Shown here piece by piece: positions 2,234-16,952 of a DNA stretch of 20,919 nucleotides. The DNA is from a virus. Position 1 is the stretch's first letter. The number at the start of each line of letters is the position of its first letter. Below the pieces are notes generated by a model, which was not told the origin of the DNA, made no database searches, and saw only the letters and a list, made by a program, of their open reading frames with translations. The DNA is taken from positions 1 through 20,919 of the IMG/VR virus record IMGVR_UViG_3300028810_000014. The stretch is one strand, 5' to 3'. A program made the position numbers and the translations under genes.

Positions 2234-2434
2234 ATGCCAACCAACAACGTGGCACCGATCACCAGCACACCCACGACGACTTGCCTCAAAGTGGACAGTG
2301 TTGAGTGGAAGGTGTTTGTGGTTCTCATGAGAGAACAGGGCCGGTCCGCCAGCGACGCGGTAAGACAAATGGTCCGTGACACGGTGAACGAGCACAACAG
2401 GGGGCGTCAGCATGCCGGTCAACCACGAGGGTGA
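2234..2434 (+). CDS. Ribbon-helix-helix (Arc/CopG-like) DNA-binding protein
   Basis: A 66-residue protein with the layout of an RHH regulator: a flexible Thr-rich N-terminus, a candidate beta strand TTTCLKVD (14-21), helix A VEWKVFVVLMREQG (23-36), the Gly-Arg-Ser-Ala-Ser turn (36-40) and helix B SDAVRQMVRDTVNEH (40-54). RHH proteins bind short operators as dimers with the paired strands in the major groove. No Shine-Dalgarno precedes ATG 2234, and a TATATA box sits 8 nt upstream, so translation may be leaderless. It overlaps the primase start by 23 nt, which suggests translational coupling and control of the replication genes. Autoregulation is inferred. Confidence 0.75.
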   Translation: MPTNNVAPITSTPTTTCLKVDSVEWKVFVVLMREQGRSASDAVRQMVRDTVNEHNRGRQHAGQPRG

Positions 2435-4544
2435 ATCCTTCCTTGATGTGATCTACGGACGCAATAGGGGATTTGTGGCGGTAGCGGCCAAGAACGGTCC
2501 GGGGGGCGCGTGGTCCGAGCAAGTGTTCTCATGGCCGGACGACCAGTCTATCGTCATGGATTGGGCATCGGCCAACTCTGACGGTGACGTGTTCATATGC
2601 CCAGCACTCCGGCGCAGTCGAGGACGTATCAAAGGCGACGGTGCACACCTCGAATGGTTGTGGGCCGACGTCGACTACCAAGACGTGCCCGATGATAAGC
2701 GGGACCTTGTCCACCAGCGCATCGAAAAACTGGCAACCATGCTGGTCAAGTCAGGCACCGGTGACAACGTCCATGTGTACGTCAAGCTCAAGCAACCCGC
2801 CACGCTGGATGTGTGGCCACGACTGAACGCCGGGCTGCGTGCGTACCTCTACGCCGACGCCAAGCACACCGACAACGCCTTGCTCCGCCTGCCGGGGACC
2901 ATCAACCACAAGCCCGGGGGTAAGCGCGTCCATATCCTCATCCCCCATAACGGCAAAACCGCCAAGGCCACCAAATTGCTGGAGCACCCGGTATGGCGTG
3001 ACGTCGTCATCACCGATGAGCGCGGCGTGAACGATGGCGCGTTCGACACGGTTGACGTCTCTGGCCTCATGCGTGGTGAGACCAAACGTCTGGTCACCAT
3101 GGACGCCGACGAAGCACGCGCCCGATATGGCACCCGGCACGGCGCGGTATACCAAGTAGCCGCACGATTGAGCAAGCGCGGTTTCACCGCCGATCAAATC
3201 CACTCCCTCATGGCCGCATTCCCGGCAGGTGTGGACAAGGAAGAATCCGAGCGAGGGTATTCGCTGCACGTCGACATAGCCCGGTGCTTGTCTGCCAACC
3301 CCACGGTTGAATCTCTCGAGATCGTGGACGACGTCATGGACTCCCTCGAAGAGGTTCCTGATGATGAGCCCGACGATTCACTGCTCATTGCCGCACGTAA
3401 GCGCATGCGTTCCATGGATGTGGAAACCCTAGCCCGACAGATGTTCAGCCAACGGGCGTTCACACCACCCCCCGACGAAGTGTCATACCGGTGGTCCGTG
3501 CATGCCAACACCCCCCGCCCGCCCGTTCAGTTCGCTGTTGACGGCATCGCAGCGGTCGGGCAGAACGTCACCATCACCGGCCAATACAAAGCCGGTAAAA
3601 CGATGTTCGGGATCAACCTCATCAGGTCCCTGGTTGATGGCGAGCCGTTCCTGGGAGAATTCAAAGTACCCCGCATGACCGGCGACGCGGCAGTTGGTTT
3701 CTGGTCCTTGGAAATGGCCAGCAGCGACCTCGACGAGTACATTGACCCCATCGGCCTGGAGTCAGGTCACCGCCTGGTGGTGTTGAGTGGCCGGGGATAC
3801 GGCATCAACTTGCTGACCGACGTGGGCAAGGCGTGGACCATTAACTGGCTGCGGGACCAGGGCGTATCTACCTGGGTCGTGGACTCACACGCCCGTATAT
3901 GCCGCATGGCGGGTGTGGACGAAAACGACAACGGGCAAGTTCTTGATTTGTTGCACCGGTTCGATGAGATCAAGGAACAAGCCGGTATCGGCGAGTTGTA
4001 TTACCTCGCGCACACTGGCCGGGGCGAGATGATGGAGGGCAGGGAGAGGGCGCGTGGGGCCACGGTGCTGGACGACTGGGCAGACGTTAGGTGGGTACTC
4101 ACGCGTGATGGAACCATGCGGTTCTTGGCCGTGGAGGGTCGAAGGGTCAAGGATTTGACCGCGACCAGCCTGATTTTTGACAAGGAAACTGGCCGCATGA
4201 CGTTGGGTACGACCGACAAATTCGGCGCGAAAAACGACGGTTTGATTGACCTGATTTCGGCTCTTGTATTGGCCTCTCCGGGTGATTTGAACAAAACGAA
4301 TTTGAAAAAACGGGTCGCGGAAGTGGCCCCAGAAGGCATGAAAAACGCCGTGATGATTACCGACGCAATCGCGGAAGCCATCGAATGCGGGTTCATAAAA
4401 CAACGTAAAATCAATGCTCAAGAGGTGCGTTTTTGGCCCGTGTTGGGTGGTGTGGTACTCGGTCGGGAGACCGATAAGGACCGCGCGATGATGGCGAAAA
4501 TGCGTAAAAGACGTGAACGGAAAAACCGGCACGATGATGCGTAG
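2412..4544 (+). CDS. Primase-polymerase fused to RepA-type ATPase/helicase
   Basis: 710 residues, a replication initiator-type enzyme with two modules. The N-terminal archaeo-eukaryotic primase (PrimPol) module shows the catalytic pair in WADVDY (D86, D88), SGTGDNVHVY at 114-123 and RLPGTINHKPG from 159. The central RecA-like ATPase has Walker A GQYKAGKT at 390-397, a Walker B-like strand ending at D491 (TWVVDSH) and an HTGRG sensor-like segment, resembling RepA/AAA_25 ATPases. The last ~130 residues look like a winged helix followed by a very basic tail. GGGGG lies ahead of ATG 2412. It should prime and unwind phage DNA at the origin. The family call is firm; the helicase polarity is unknown. 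Confidence 0.92.
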   Translation: MPVNHEGESFLDVIYGRNRGFVAVAAKNGPGGAWSEQVFSWPDDQSIVMDWASANSDGDVFICPALRRSRGRIKGDGAHLEWLWADVDYQDVPDDKRDLVHQRIEKLATMLVKSGTGDNVHVYVKLKQPATLDVWPRLNAGLRAYLYADAKHTDNALLRLPGTINHKPGGKRVHILIPHNGKTAKATKLLEHPVWRDVVITDERGVNDGAFDTVDVSGLMRGETKRLVTMDADEARARYGTRHGAVYQVAARLSKRGFTADQIHSLMAAFPAGVDKEESERGYSLHVDIARCLSANPTVESLEIVDDVMDSLEEVPDDEPDDSLLIAARKRMRSMDVETLARQMFSQRAFTPPPDEVSYRWSVHANTPRPPVQFAVDGIAAVGQNVTITGQYKAGKTMFGINLIRSLVDGEPFLGEFKVPRMTGDAAVGFWSLEMASSDLDEYIDPIGLESGHRLVVLSGRGYGINLLTDVGKAWTINWLRDQGVSTWVVDSHARICRMAGVDENDNGQVLDLLHRFDEIKEQAGIGELYYLAHTGRGEMMEGRERARGATVLDDWADVRWVLTRDGTMRFLAVEGRRVKDLTATSLIFDKETGRMTLGTTDKFGAKNDGLIDLISALVLASPGDLNKTNLKKRVAEVAPEGMKNAVMITDAIAEAIECGFIKQRKINAQEVRFWPVLGGVVLGRETDKDRAMMAKMRKRRERKNRHDDA

Positions 4545-4559
4545 GAGGCGGGTAACCGG

Positions 4560-4628
4560 AACCGTGCTTATTACCTAAGCACGGCGAAGGAAGCACGGTT
4601 CATATGGCTATCCAGGCCAACCGTGCTT
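4560..4628. repeat. Four-copy inverted arm repeat forming two hairpins
   Basis: The arm AACCGTGCTT occurs at 4560-4569 and 4619-4628; its complement AAGCACGG occurs at 4577-4584 and, extended to AAGCACGGTT, at 4591-4600. Arms 1 and 2 give a perfect 9-bp stem with a 5-nt loop (4562-4570 with 4576-4584). Arms 3 and 4 give a perfect 10-bp stem with an 18-nt loop. Because all arms share one core, arms 2 and 3 could also compete for the same partners. This is suitable for a cruciform, an iteron/operator array or alternative RNA folds. Confidence 0.85.
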
Positions 4629-4633
4629 GAAAT

Positions 4634-4662
4634 GGGGTAACCCCCCCCCATGGGGGGTCCCC
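4634..4662. repeat. C9/G6 tract with hairpin potential
   Basis: GGGG, then nine Cs (4641-4649), AT, six Gs (4652-4657), T and CCCC (4659-4662). Six C:G pairs can form around a CAT loop, flanked by an outer GGGG/CCCC pairing. No T tract follows, so it is not a classical intrinsic terminator, but with the preceding hairpins it could stop or pause polymerase. The 9-base homopolymer is also a likely site of length error or slippage. Confidence 0.6.
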
Positions 4663-4780
4663 AATTAAGCGCGGTGGCATGGAGCCATGATTGCGGGTTG
4701 AAAGAGATAAAAAACGTGGTCGGTTGGTTCGGGTGCGGATGTCGAGGAGTGGTTATGCGGGACGGCTCGTTCTGGATGCT

Positions 4781-4823
4781 GGGAGGGGGATCTGGGGGTG
4801 AATGGCGACGGGTGGGGGTTGGG
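4781..4823 (+). other. G-quadruplex-prone G runs
   Basis: Runs of three to five G on the plus strand: 4781-4783, 4785-4789, 4794-4798, 4810-4812, 4814-4818 and 4821-4823. Spacers are mostly 1-4 nt, with one longer gap. Any four neighbouring runs satisfy the usual G-quadruplex pattern. It lies in the non-coding stretch downstream of the primase gene. Confidence 0.55.
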
Positions 4824-5023
4824 TGTGGATTGAGGAGCGCGGGAAAGGGGTCTGTAAGACACGCTGCGGGGTTGGGAGGCGGTTTTGTGGGGCCGTACCG
4901 GGGTGGCGGGGTGTTAAGGTCGCAGCGGGCAAATGCGGGGTTAGGTTAAGAGAACGGGAAGTCTGACTCTATTTGGTCTTACGTAGGTAGGAAATGGCCT
5001 TATCTCTCACAAGGGAAAACGTG

Positions 5024-5101
5024 ATGAAAATTGGTGGACTGCCCTATTCGAAACGAGCGGGAGACCTGGCTGAAAACGCCGGACGGACGGAGAAGATATA
5101 A
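5024..5101 (+). CDS. 25-residue small protein
   Basis: ATG at 5024 follows AAGGGAAAACGTG, and the stop TAA shares its last base with the ATG of the next gene, typical of translational coupling. The product is hydrophilic, with basic residues K10, R11, R21 and K24, and no recognised motif. It is the first gene after the non-coding region and may act mainly as a leader peptide. Support is only the binding site and the tight junction. Confidence 0.5.
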   Translation: MKIGGLPYSKRAGDLAENAGRTEKI

Positions 5102-5322
5102 TGATGGACATGGATGAGTCTTCTGACGAACGCGACGAGGAAACACCACGTCGTGTTCTGTCCGACTGGGCGCACTTGCCTGGCGGGTATCACGAGGAAC
5201 GACCACCCGATCCCTGCGGCTGTATCTGGTGCGTCGGGAACAGAACACGGCAAAGTGCTGCGACGTTCGTCGCGGCAAATCAAGATTGGCGAGAATACGC
5301 CAAGGGATGGAGCGGACTGTGA
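5101..5322 (+). CDS. Small acidic/Cys-containing protein, unknown
   Basis: 73 residues starting with tandem Met codons. GGACGGAG precedes the start, which overlaps the upstream stop by one base. The N-terminus is very acidic (MDESSDERDEE), the middle has a Cys cluster DPCGCIWC (near 38-45), and the C-terminus is WREYAKGWSGL. The three closely spaced cysteines could bind metal. No family recognised. The stop overlaps the GTG start of the next gene in GTGA. Confidence 0.7.
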   Translation: MMDMDESSDERDEETPRRVLSDWAHLPGGYHEERPPDPCGCIWCVGNRTRQSAATFVAANQDWREYAKGWSGL

Positions 5323-13131: not shown

Positions 13132-13720
13132 CCGGGTTCAAGACCTCGCCTACACGATTCAATTCTGGTTCTGGTGCACCGAGTACGCGGCCATCGTCGT
13201 GACGGTGGTGTGGACCCGATGGGGCTGGTATGGCCTCATCCATTCCGAGTACCGAACAGTCGGCAAGCGCCGGGGTACCACACGGGCATCATGGGGTACC
13301 TATCGAGGGTATGTCTCTCGGCCACGGTTCTATTCGGTCGAGGCAACGTTGCGCATGTCAAAATTTGGCGGAACGACGTCAAGTATTGTCAAACCGCGCC
13401 CTGAGAGCCACGATAACGGCTTCGTGCACATGTTGGTGGACCGCGACCCCGGGTATTGGGACAACCGGCCAGCGTGTCTCCCAGCCATACCGGAAGGGGG
13501 CTGGTCACGGGTCACCCCACCCGATGACCCGTACTGGTTCGGTGAGGAAGCGTTCGATGGTCCGTGGCCGGTGGTGGTAGGTACCGCGCAGGTACCACCA
13601 TGGTCACGCGAGCCGGACGCTGACACCGTCCTGTTCTATCTCGGGGACCTAACAGGAAGCACGATCGAAGGAAGCATTTATGAGAGTGAGAATCATCGCT
13701 CAGACTCAGTTTCACGGTGA
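13082..13720 (+). CDS. 212-residue Trp/Tyr-rich protein, possible membrane segment
   Basis: GTG 13082 follows AGGTGGTGAATTCTC. Residues about 26-46 are hydrophobic and aromatic (TIQFWFWCTEYAAIVVTVVW), a candidate membrane segment. Then comes a basic stretch (TVGKRRGTTRASWGTYRG) and a soluble region rich in Trp, Pro and Asp. The C-terminus overlaps thyX by 41 nt and carries that gene's AAGGAAG site. No family recognised. Confidence 0.68.
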   Translation: MTQLERSLLYRVDWTHNRVQDLAYTIQFWFWCTEYAAIVVTVVWTRWGWYGLIHSEYRTVGKRRGTTRASWGTYRGYVSRPRFYSVEATLRMSKFGGTTSSIVKPRPESHDNGFVHMLVDRDPGYWDNRPACLPAIPEGGWSRVTPPDDPYWFGEEAFDGPWPVVVGTAQVPPWSREPDADTVLFYLGDLTGSTIEGSIYESENHRSDSVSR

Positions 13721-14459
13721 GGTCGCGTCTGCGCTGACTGATGGCGTCTGGTATCCGGATATGGCGGGTACCGATGCGGCCAACCTGTCGGAGTTCGCGG
13801 GTAGGGCGTGTTACCAGTCGTGGAGTCGCCCGAACGAGGCAACATCAACCAATGAGGGGTATATCGACCACATCATTGAGGTGGGGCATAATACTGTCCT
13901 CGAGCACGGTACGGTGTCGATCTACATAGACGAGGTGTCTCGGTCGTTCACCCATGAGATGATCCGCCATCGGCACAACTCTTACAGTCAGCTGTCCCAG
14001 CGGTTCGTCGTGCAGGGGAAACCCGAGAAGGGCAAATCCCCGTTTATTACTCCGGCGTTGTTCCGGGATAGCGAACTGGCCGGTACGATTTTGCTGGCTG
14101 CCTGGGAGGAGGCCATGCATTCCTACGATGCATTGCTGGGTCTGGCCGAGACGATCCTCTCCACCATGACGCCTACCGACCAGAGCGGTACTGCACATCG
14201 GAGGAAAGAAGCCCGTGAAGCGGCGCGGTGCGTGCTGCCCAACATGACGCCTACGGCGATCATCGTCTCGGGTAACCACTCGGCTTGGCGTGACTTCCTC
14301 ACCAAGCGTGCGTCACTTCACGCCGACGCCGAGATTCGGGAAGTGGCCATGCAGATCTTTTACGAACTCGAAATGTCCGAGACCAACCTGTACCAGGACT
14401 TTCGAGTCATGATGGATGATCGAGGACGTTCATACCTGGTGCGCGATGCCGAGGACTGA
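13680..14459 (+). CDS. thyX: FAD-dependent thymidylate synthase ThyX
   Basis: Makes dTMP from dUMP using methylene-tetrahydrofolate with FAD and NADPH. 259 residues, the usual length. The signature RHRx7S is at 96-106 (R96, H97, R98, S106), extended as RHRHNSYSQLSQRF, the variant typical of actinobacterial enzymes rather than the textbook RHRxxSxNExSxRY. Upstream HNTVLEHG (70-77) and EVSRSFTHEMI (85-95) are also characteristic. AAGGAAG lies 6 nt before ATG 13680. It should raise dTTP supply for phage replication. No other nucleotide-metabolism gene is linked in this window. Confidence 0.96.
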   Translation: MRVRIIAQTQFHGEVASALTDGVWYPDMAGTDAANLSEFAGRACYQSWSRPNEATSTNEGYIDHIIEVGHNTVLEHGTVSIYIDEVSRSFTHEMIRHRHNSYSQLSQRFVVQGKPEKGKSPFITPALFRDSELAGTILLAAWEEAMHSYDALLGLAETILSTMTPTDQSGTAHRRKEAREAARCVLPNMTPTAIIVSGNHSAWRDFLTKRASLHADAEIREVAMQIFYELEMSETNLYQDFRVMMDDRGRSYLVRDAED

Positions 14460-14733
14460 TGAACAGCGCAAGGCCGATGCCCGAGTACAAGCCGCGATTG
14501 AGCATTGGTTGGAGGTCAACGAACTGCTCGGGGATGGTGTGGCCGAAGAACGGCGCGTTCTCACTGATTACGTCGTATACGCGGCAACCCGGGGGTTCAC
14601 CTTGGACGAGAGCGACGACGTCACCGGGTACCCGTTCATCATGCGCCCGGGTATGCCGACCTATTGCGCGGTTGGTCTGGCGGAGTGCGGCGTAGCCAAC
14701 ATGCTTGAAGCGTTCAACGATTCGGAGGATTGA
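14446..14733 (+). CDS. 95-residue acidic protein, unknown
   Basis: ATG 14446, overlapping the thyX end by 14 nt; ATG 14416 upstream would also fit but lengthens the overlap. It is helical at the start (TDEQRKADARVQAAIEHWLEV) and acidic, with two cysteines in TYCAVGLAECGVANM. No family recognised. The stop overlaps the next ATG by one base, and GGAGG near its end serves the next gene. Confidence 0.7.
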   Translation: MPRTDEQRKADARVQAAIEHWLEVNELLGDGVAEERRVLTDYVVYAATRGFTLDESDDVTGYPFIMRPGMPTYCAVGLAECGVANMLEAFNDSED

Positions 14734-15533
14734 TGACACAGCAGGGCAAGCCACAACCCATCAAGTCGGGTGGGGGGTTCAGCAAACGTAACGCCGGACA
14801 GATGACAGTCCAGATGGACGACGTCCAGCGGATGCAACAGGGGTATGAGGACCGGATCGCTCGGCAGAAGGCGTCGTTGGATCGGTTGTCTGACCTGTTG
14901 TCGGCCCGAACTGACCAATTGACTCGTCAGATGGAAGGTGAGAACGATCGGGCACAAGAGTGGGGACTTCCGGCAATTGAAGAGGTTCGTTTAGTTGATC
15001 GTAAACGAACCGGTCCCGACGAGGATCAGACATGGGTTGACTTCGTCGTTGGCCTGATCCCCAAAGACTGGGACATGTTCAACGAGGACGACAGCAAAGA
15101 GACCATCATCGCCGCGTACATCCGGCATCTGCAGAGCGAAGTGCACGAACAACACGCCAAGCAAATCAGTCAAGGACAAGCGCTTAAGGGATCGGAAGAG
15201 GCGCGGTTGACTGGGGAGAAGAAATTGGCACAAGTCCAGGCCGAACGGGACGAAGCCACCCGCAATCTGGCGCAGGCCATTGCCGACGCGCGTCACAACG
15301 CCAAGGTGGCTAACACCGCGTTCCAGCAAGTCCAGATCGACGATGACATCCCGCCGTGGGATAAGCCCGGGTTTACACCTCCGGGGTCATCCGTCGTGGC
15401 GACCGTGATCGAGCGCAATACCCCGGTGGCCGACAACACCGAGCCATCGCGTGGAGATTCGGAGACCGTGGAGTTCAACGCGTTCTCGGGACCTCACCCA
15501 TACCCGGGGGAGGAACGTCCCGGTTCATTTTGA
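14733..15533 (+). CDS. 266-residue coiled-coil protein, unknown
   Basis: TCGGAGGATTG precedes ATG 14733, one-base overlap with the previous stop. Two long charged helical regions, about 30-75 (MDDVQRMQQGYEDRIARQKA...) and 128-195 (HLQSEVHEQHAKQIS...), look like coiled coils separated by a compact DFVVGLIPKDWDMF segment. The C-terminal ~65 residues are Pro/Glu/Ser-rich and disordered. Position just before the packaging genes does not define a job. Could be structural or regulatory. Last gene before the 153-nt leader. Confidence 0.8.
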   Translation: MTQQGKPQPIKSGGGFSKRNAGQMTVQMDDVQRMQQGYEDRIARQKASLDRLSDLLSARTDQLTRQMEGENDRAQEWGLPAIEEVRLVDRKRTGPDEDQTWVDFVVGLIPKDWDMFNEDDSKETIIAAYIRHLQSEVHEQHAKQISQGQALKGSEEARLTGEKKLAQVQAERDEATRNLAQAIADARHNAKVANTAFQQVQIDDDIPPWDKPGFTPPGSSVVATVIERNTPVADNTEPSRGDSETVEFNAFSGPHPYPGEERPGSF

Positions 15534-16758: not shown

Positions 16759-16952
16759 CCGAGCGGTATTGCGTAGACTCCGGGCGCGCAGTTCGCATGA
16801 TCCCCGGCGATCGCTGCCTACACCACGGCAATCGGGACACGCCGTGCTTCACCGCTGTCCGCGAGGCAAGGTGCACCCACTCGCACCTATCGCCCAACCA
16901 CCCCCATCCACACTGCTCCGAATGCGGACTAGATCTGGAGGTCAGTTCATGA
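16755..16952 (+). CDS. 65-residue Cys/His-rich protein
   Basis: GGGGGCAAGTC precedes ATG 16755 in an ATGA overlap. Six cysteines and seven histidines in 65 residues (YCVDSG; DRCLHHGNRDTPC; RCTHSHLSPNHPHPHCSEC) suggest one or two zinc sites. No known spacing recognised. Its last codons hold the GGAGG site of the next gene; ATGA overlap. Confidence 0.72.
   Translation: MTERYCVDSGRAVRMIPGDRCLHHGNRDTPCFTAVREARCTHSHLSPNHPHPHCSECGLDLEVSS

Follow-up and report, generated by a model that had tools for sequence, protein, structure and literature searches.

Few phages have a known replication origin, and the DNA analysed here, a stretch of 20,919 nucleotides (positions 1–20,919 of the IMG/VR record IMGVR_UViG_3300028810_000014, referred to as the window), raises the question of which function is served by a cluster of short repeats directly behind a primase-helicase gene. 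The original prediction, made from the letters alone, had offered two answers, a phage origin or an operator for a small RHH protein. We hypothesize, with a probability of about 80%, that positions 4560–4688 form the replication origin of the phage, composed of iterons and a hairpin and read by the phage's own initiator, which is encoded next to it.

The arm array and its core palindrome

The array starts 15 nt downstream of the stop codon of the primase-helicase gene at 4544. Arm 1 (4560–4569) and arm 4 (4619–4628) read AACCGTGCTT on the plus strand, arm 3 (4591–4600) reads AACCGTGCTT on the minus strand and arm 2 (4577–4584) is the 8-mer CCGTGCTT on the minus strand. The predicted arrangement, with the arm present twice in each orientation in 69 bp (4560–4628), was thus confirmed, and a degenerate fifth arm that had been overlooked is located at 4667–4675 (letters given as AAGCGCGGT; ACCGCGCTT on the minus strand, one mismatch). 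Several arm copies within ~150 bp are expected of an iteron-type origin, and four plus one degenerate are found here. Exact copies of CCGTGCTT in the 20.9-kb window lie at 4562 (+), 4577 (−), 4591 (−), 4621 (+) and 16842 (+), the last being the lone further copy that had been noted near 16844, and there is no second cluster. This count of five compares with 0.58 expected and was attained in none of 100 shuffles. CCGTGCTT is also the only 8-mer of the window with four copies inside 150 bp, and an 8-mer cluster of that density occurred in 0 of 1000 shuffled windows.

Both perfect hairpins of the original prediction, with exchangeable partners, were recovered, one of 9 bp (4562–4570/4576–4584) and one of 10 bp (4591–4600/4619–4628), together with an alternative arm pairing of 11 bp (4559–4569/4591–4601). 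The minimum-energy fold has arm 3 as the partner of arm 1 and arm 5 as that of arm 4, in place of the pairs 1–2 and 3–4. Arms 4 and 5 are the left and right arms of a core palindrome of ~85 nt (4604–4688), which they close around a G/C apical stem (4633–4663 in the predicted fold, GGGGTAACCCCCCCCCATGGGGGGTCCCC). In the predicted single-strand fold the palindrome forms 34–35 base pairs on either strand, with about equal fold strength on both, and the segment 4545–4690 as single-stranded DNA reaches −48.7 kcal/mol versus −24.3 ± 2.6 in shuffles (z −9.2). The element matched no Rfam family, and a tRNA search found none.

Layout of the arrays in related phages

The same kind of primase-helicase is encoded on three further IMG/VR contigs, L001 (67% identity; 58-kb record G001), L006 (63%; record G002) and L008 (40%; record G004, IMGVR 3300044541_000010, 56.9 kb); L007, with 24% identity in the N-terminal part only, was left out as too distant. 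No cluster of CCGTGCTT was seen after the primase-helicase gene in L001, L006 or L008, and hence the comparison was made by layout. A private arm follows the gene in each of the three contigs, CGTGACACT in L001, CGAGACAGT in L006 and AGTGTCAGC in L008, the last in four copies with an 11-bp period, and the arms of the window have only a loose ASYGT core in common with those of the relatives. Because these arms are spelled otherwise, a search by the letters of CCGTGCTT alone would miss the arrays. All nine exact copies of CGTGACAC in the 58 kb of G001 fall in one 340-bp cluster, as do seven of the eight exact CGAGACAGT copies of G002 in a single cluster. In five annotated Mycobacteroides prophages (M. 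abscessus and M. chelonae), where primase and helicase are separate genes, ACTGTTTCA arms follow the DnaB-like (AAA_25) helicase gene.

Counted from the helicase stop, with signs denoting orientation, the arms lie at +17 −33 −47 +76 −123 in the window, +17 −32 −44 +73 −118 in L006, +23 −45 −57 +88 −133 in L001 (plus one − arm at 34) and +19 −41 −55 +85 −125 in an M. abscessus prophage, while L008 retains the core pair (+83, −125) with a tandem array ahead of it. Equally close random five-site layouts were obtained 0 (L006), 8 (prophage) and 33 (L001) times per 300000 trials. An arm cluster at the same place in related genomes, as envisaged in the original prediction, is therefore present with a conserved layout and different letters, and both close relatives, which keep the primase, carry it. 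Across L001, L006, L008 and the mycobacterial prophages, the array is linked to the initiator/helicase gene by this shared position.

Equivalent core palindromes are found in the same three contigs and in the mycobacterial prophages, and all seven cores tested fold better than shuffles (z −4.5 to −9.3). The apical stem has its own sequence in each relative, at the same place and self-complementary each time, and a stem-loop lies between the core arms in every phage examined, with G/C runs in the window, L001 and L006, GCATGGGG...CCCCATGC in L008, and AGAAACCCTAAAGGGTTTCT and AAGTTTTCTCATAGAGAAAACCTT in two of the mycobacterial prophages. As the stems differ in letters yet every core folds, the hairpin structure is kept while its sequence changes. 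Just below the apical stem, a bulge of 2–3 nt is seen on the 5' side of the palindrome in the window (about 4638–4640), L001, L006 and L008, and could be a structure-specific recognition mark. L001 (7056–7100) and L006 (10060–10084) have additional arms that lie ~150 bp upstream, within the 3' end of the primase gene, and repeats of the origin type thereby code for a portion of the protein's tail.

Outside these relatives, a profile search of the genome contigs with an alignment of three primases found no relative, and Streptomyces phage Kela has no array after its primase gene. The Zukovirus phages KimJongPhill (L017, 3531–3730) and Zuko (L018, 3505–3690) have a repeat cluster upstream of the primase operon, with copies that read AGAACGCT and GGAACAGC, respectively, and nearly equal spacing (65, 90, 179 versus 65, 90, 178).

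A broader survey covered phage loci with related helicases. A scan with the helicase/C-terminal alignment gave 70 viral loci, of which 68 could be scored, and two more came from a second scan; merging of near-duplicates left 52 distinct loci. Each was scored by how often a single 8-mer recurs within 250 bp at the stop codon of the helicase gene. At least four copies were found in 24 of the 52 loci, compared with 3 of 2255 control windows taken from the same loci and consisting mostly of coding sequence, which limits the comparison; at least three copies were present in 37 loci and fewer than three in the other 15. When the six loci that had prompted the survey (L024, L025, L031, L088, L089 and L091) were set aside, at least four copies remained in 18/46 and at least three in 31/46. 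A hairpin at the helicase stop ranked among the strongest 5% of its own locus in 25/52 loci. By inspection, private arms were recognised in L076, L053 and L030, and an arm-framed stem-loop in L076 and L053. Judged from these sequences, arrays of this pattern are widespread downstream of genes for related helicases.

A candidate initiator and competing readings

The likeliest initiator would be encoded immediately upstream (2412–4544, plus strand), by a gene whose product is a 710-aa protein predicted to combine an N-terminal AEP primase fold, an AAA_25 helicase (Pfam E 3.5e-13) and a C-terminal winged helix. RSF1010 RepA is a member of AAA_25; a sequence-profile search of PDB sequences with the primase-helicase gave no meaningful match, and RepA was not among the returns. 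A full-length AlphaFold model built from four sequences was of low confidence (mean pLDDT 50), with values mostly of 60–78 in the N-terminus, which in this model resembles the RSF1010 primase RepB' (Foldseek E 1.9e-9 for 3h20; Z 14.8 for 3h25) and, on a par with it, the S-2L PrimPol (6zp9; Z 14.9). The C-terminus modelled alone gave a winged helix with a core pLDDT of 77–89. Foldseek searches with this domain returned generic winged-helix regulators only, and its family is therefore left unnamed. It is the least conserved part of the protein (20–37% identity versus about 40–65% for the whole), and such fast divergence would fit, if only suggestively, a domain that reads phage-specific sequence. 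The three larger records (57–58 kb relatives) also encode a family A DNA polymerase. Elsewhere in the window, 13680–14459 encodes the thymidylate synthase ThyX (Pfam Thy1, E 2.4e-43), and a 267-aa ORF at 14730–15533 gave a sub-threshold match to the Pfam CRISPR family Cse2 (E 0.0019; 19.1 bits versus a cut-off of 24.6) that is probably due to chance.

Based on these predictions, we propose that arms 1–5 are iterons serving as sites for a sequence-specific initiator, and that the palindrome framed by arms 4 and 5 could become a hairpin, on one strand or the other, through extrusion or exposure. Binding of the initiator's winged helix to the arms would lead to loading of the AAA_25 ring and unwinding of the DNA, and the RepB'-like primase domain would then start primers at or beside the hairpin. 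Initiation of replication at the array is the likely part of this scheme; recognition of the arms by the predicted C-terminal winged helix has odds a little better than even, and priming at the hairpin is a tentative step to which we give somewhat less than an even chance. The suggestion that the cluster could be a phage origin is strongly supported by its place, its layout and the hairpin in the relatives, together with the survey of helicase loci.

The GC skew is compatible with an origin. In the window and both 57–58 kb relatives, the minimum of the cumulative GC skew is located 0.9–2.5 kb upstream of the array, where it coincides with a nearby switch in gene orientation; this coincidence and the offset of 1–2.5 kb count against the origin reading. 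A further point against it is that there is no marked AT-rich stretch beside the window array that could act as an unwinding element, and L008 has a short AT loop only. The 15 surveyed loci with fewer than three copies, the upstream position of the Zukovirus clusters, the loose arm core shared with relatives and the low confidence of the full-length model also weigh on that side. The region past the array had been described as free of genes, which holds for the window insofar as 4545–5100 contains no convincing gene, but the equivalent region of L006 has an intact ORF. GC skew in the window peaks, at 0.47, in the G-rich, gene-free stretch that follows the array (4689–5000). In each of the three genomes G-skew is highest right behind the array, with a value of about 0.5 across 400 bp (4689–5100 in the window, 7400–7760 in L001 and 10278–10952 in L006). 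In L006, part of this stretch is occupied by the intact ORF (phrog_16564, E 6.7e-9), whose C-terminus carries a zinc-ribbon-like CxxC...CPWDG motif, and the seemingly gene-free stretch of the window and L001 is possibly a decayed copy of this ORF.

Three other readings, in which the array is an operator, a terminator or similar RNA signal, or an attP site, fit worse than an origin. That the arms are an operator, at which the RHH protein or another repressor controls downstream genes or the replication operon, is unlikely, even though short inverted and direct arms would suit dimeric repressors. A small RHH-like gene (2267–2434, plus strand, exact start uncertain; Pfam RHH_1 below threshold, E 0.17) lies directly upstream of the primase gene and has homologues in the corresponding position of L001 and L006, and the plasmid pRN1 has a repressor gene at the same operon position (PMC4234260). 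The gene likely encodes an operon regulator. No homologue of the window RHH protein was found in G004, however, whose array is intact, so array and RHH gene do not always occur together and the proposal of an RHH operator is weakened. The constant partner is instead the helicase gene upstream. Furthermore, a search for sigma-70-type sites found no promoter-like site near the array, the arms of G001 and G002 are limited to one cluster save a single stray copy, and a long conserved palindrome would be superfluous for an operator.

Considerably less probable still is that the element acts as RNA and provides the primase transcript with a 3'-end structure, a terminator or a processing signal. The stop codon is followed at once by a very stable stem, which would suit such a role, but a terminator-like site (a stem followed by a T-run) is absent from 4300–5300, and in pRN1 the terminator hairpin is dispensable whereas the long stem-loop is not (PMC4234260). 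The lack of an Rfam family likewise speaks against it, as does a palindrome that folds about as well on either strand. Neither the identical arms in both orientations across 100 bp nor those inside the 3' gene end of L001 and L006 would be explained. Arm-type integrase sites are short, occur in two orientations and vary from phage to phage, much like the arms described here, but with its location fixed behind the helicase gene the array has only a negligible chance of being an attachment site with such arms or another recombination site. Neither PF00589 (tyrosine integrase) nor PF07508 (large serine recombinase) was found in the window record, which is a fragment, and the three 57–58 kb relatives.

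Relation to known origins and implications

As an origin, the window element is a variant of a known arrangement, an iteron/stem-loop origin beside its initiator, and it joins features of the SaPI, pRN1 and RSF1010 origins. In the SaPIs of Staphylococcus, the origin is described as a set of iterons immediately behind the rep helicase gene that are bound by the C-terminal domain of its product, and the SaPI-related SCCmec helicase Cch2 bound the direct, and not the inverted, repeats of its putative origin (PMC7581432). The SaPI rep-ori and Cch2 systems resemble the window in having short repeats directly behind the helicase gene and, given the winged helix predicted here, possibly also in C-terminal repeat binding. 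In contrast, SaPIs are satellites with DUF927/D5-type helicases, whereas the window belongs to a phage of its own with an AAA_25 helicase, and its repeats frame a long palindrome, with arm sequences and a layout unlike those of SaPIs.

In the archaeal plasmid pRN1, a stem-loop of ~100 nt downstream of the primase-helicase gene is essential, also when moved, and its structure is conserved more than its sequence; the same arrangement was proposed by the authors for the Bordetella phage BIP-1 (PMC4234260). The pRN1 operon (orf56-orf904) and the window have in common a small regulator gene, a primase-helicase with a C-terminal winged helix and a long downstream stem-loop in which structure is kept above sequence. 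They differ in that pRN1 has an SF3 helicase and no iterons, as opposed to AAA_25 and iterons combined with a palindrome. The pRN1 origin also functions without an AT-rich unwinding element, which is usual but not universal (PMC4234260).

The IncQ plasmid RSF1010 (RepA, RepB', RepC, oriV, ssiA/ssiB) has an origin with iterons plus hairpins (PMC4234260), and RepB' recognises hairpin initiation sites (PMC4434180). The window shares the hairpin, the proposed iterons and, as modelled, the RepB'-type N-terminal primase fold. However, RSF1010 uses three separate proteins and two separate ssi sites, whereas here there is one fused 710-aa protein and one palindrome, and no AT-rich region is seen. In phage P4, the alpha protein unites primase, helicase and winged-helix origin binding, and is bound to repeats (PMC4234260); by this description, all three functions in one protein and an origin with repeats would be shared, but the primase of P4 is of the TOPRIM type. 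The phage Sfi21 origin (PER element), a short noncoding replication origin in the replication module (PMC6356513), is a functional parallel only.

In the open-access literature, no description of these arrays was found. We consider it possible, though with the balance somewhat against it, that they represent an undescribed, widespread class of phage origins, in which a RepB'-like primase, an AAA_25 helicase and a winged-helix reader, as one protein or encoded by adjacent genes, act at an iteron/palindrome origin with private arms and fixed spacing. Since the repeat spacing is kept while the spelling is private to each relative, origins become locatable in many uncultured phages: a repeat array plus hairpin right behind an AAA_25 helicase gene would mark the origin in dozens of them, and the same rule covers Mycobacteroides prophages, which are open to experiment. 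With arms that differ in a layout that stays, it becomes directly testable whether initiators and origins co-evolve and whether competing phages keep their origins exclusive. If the private arm indeed acts as a 'password', related phages would be unable to fire each other's origins.
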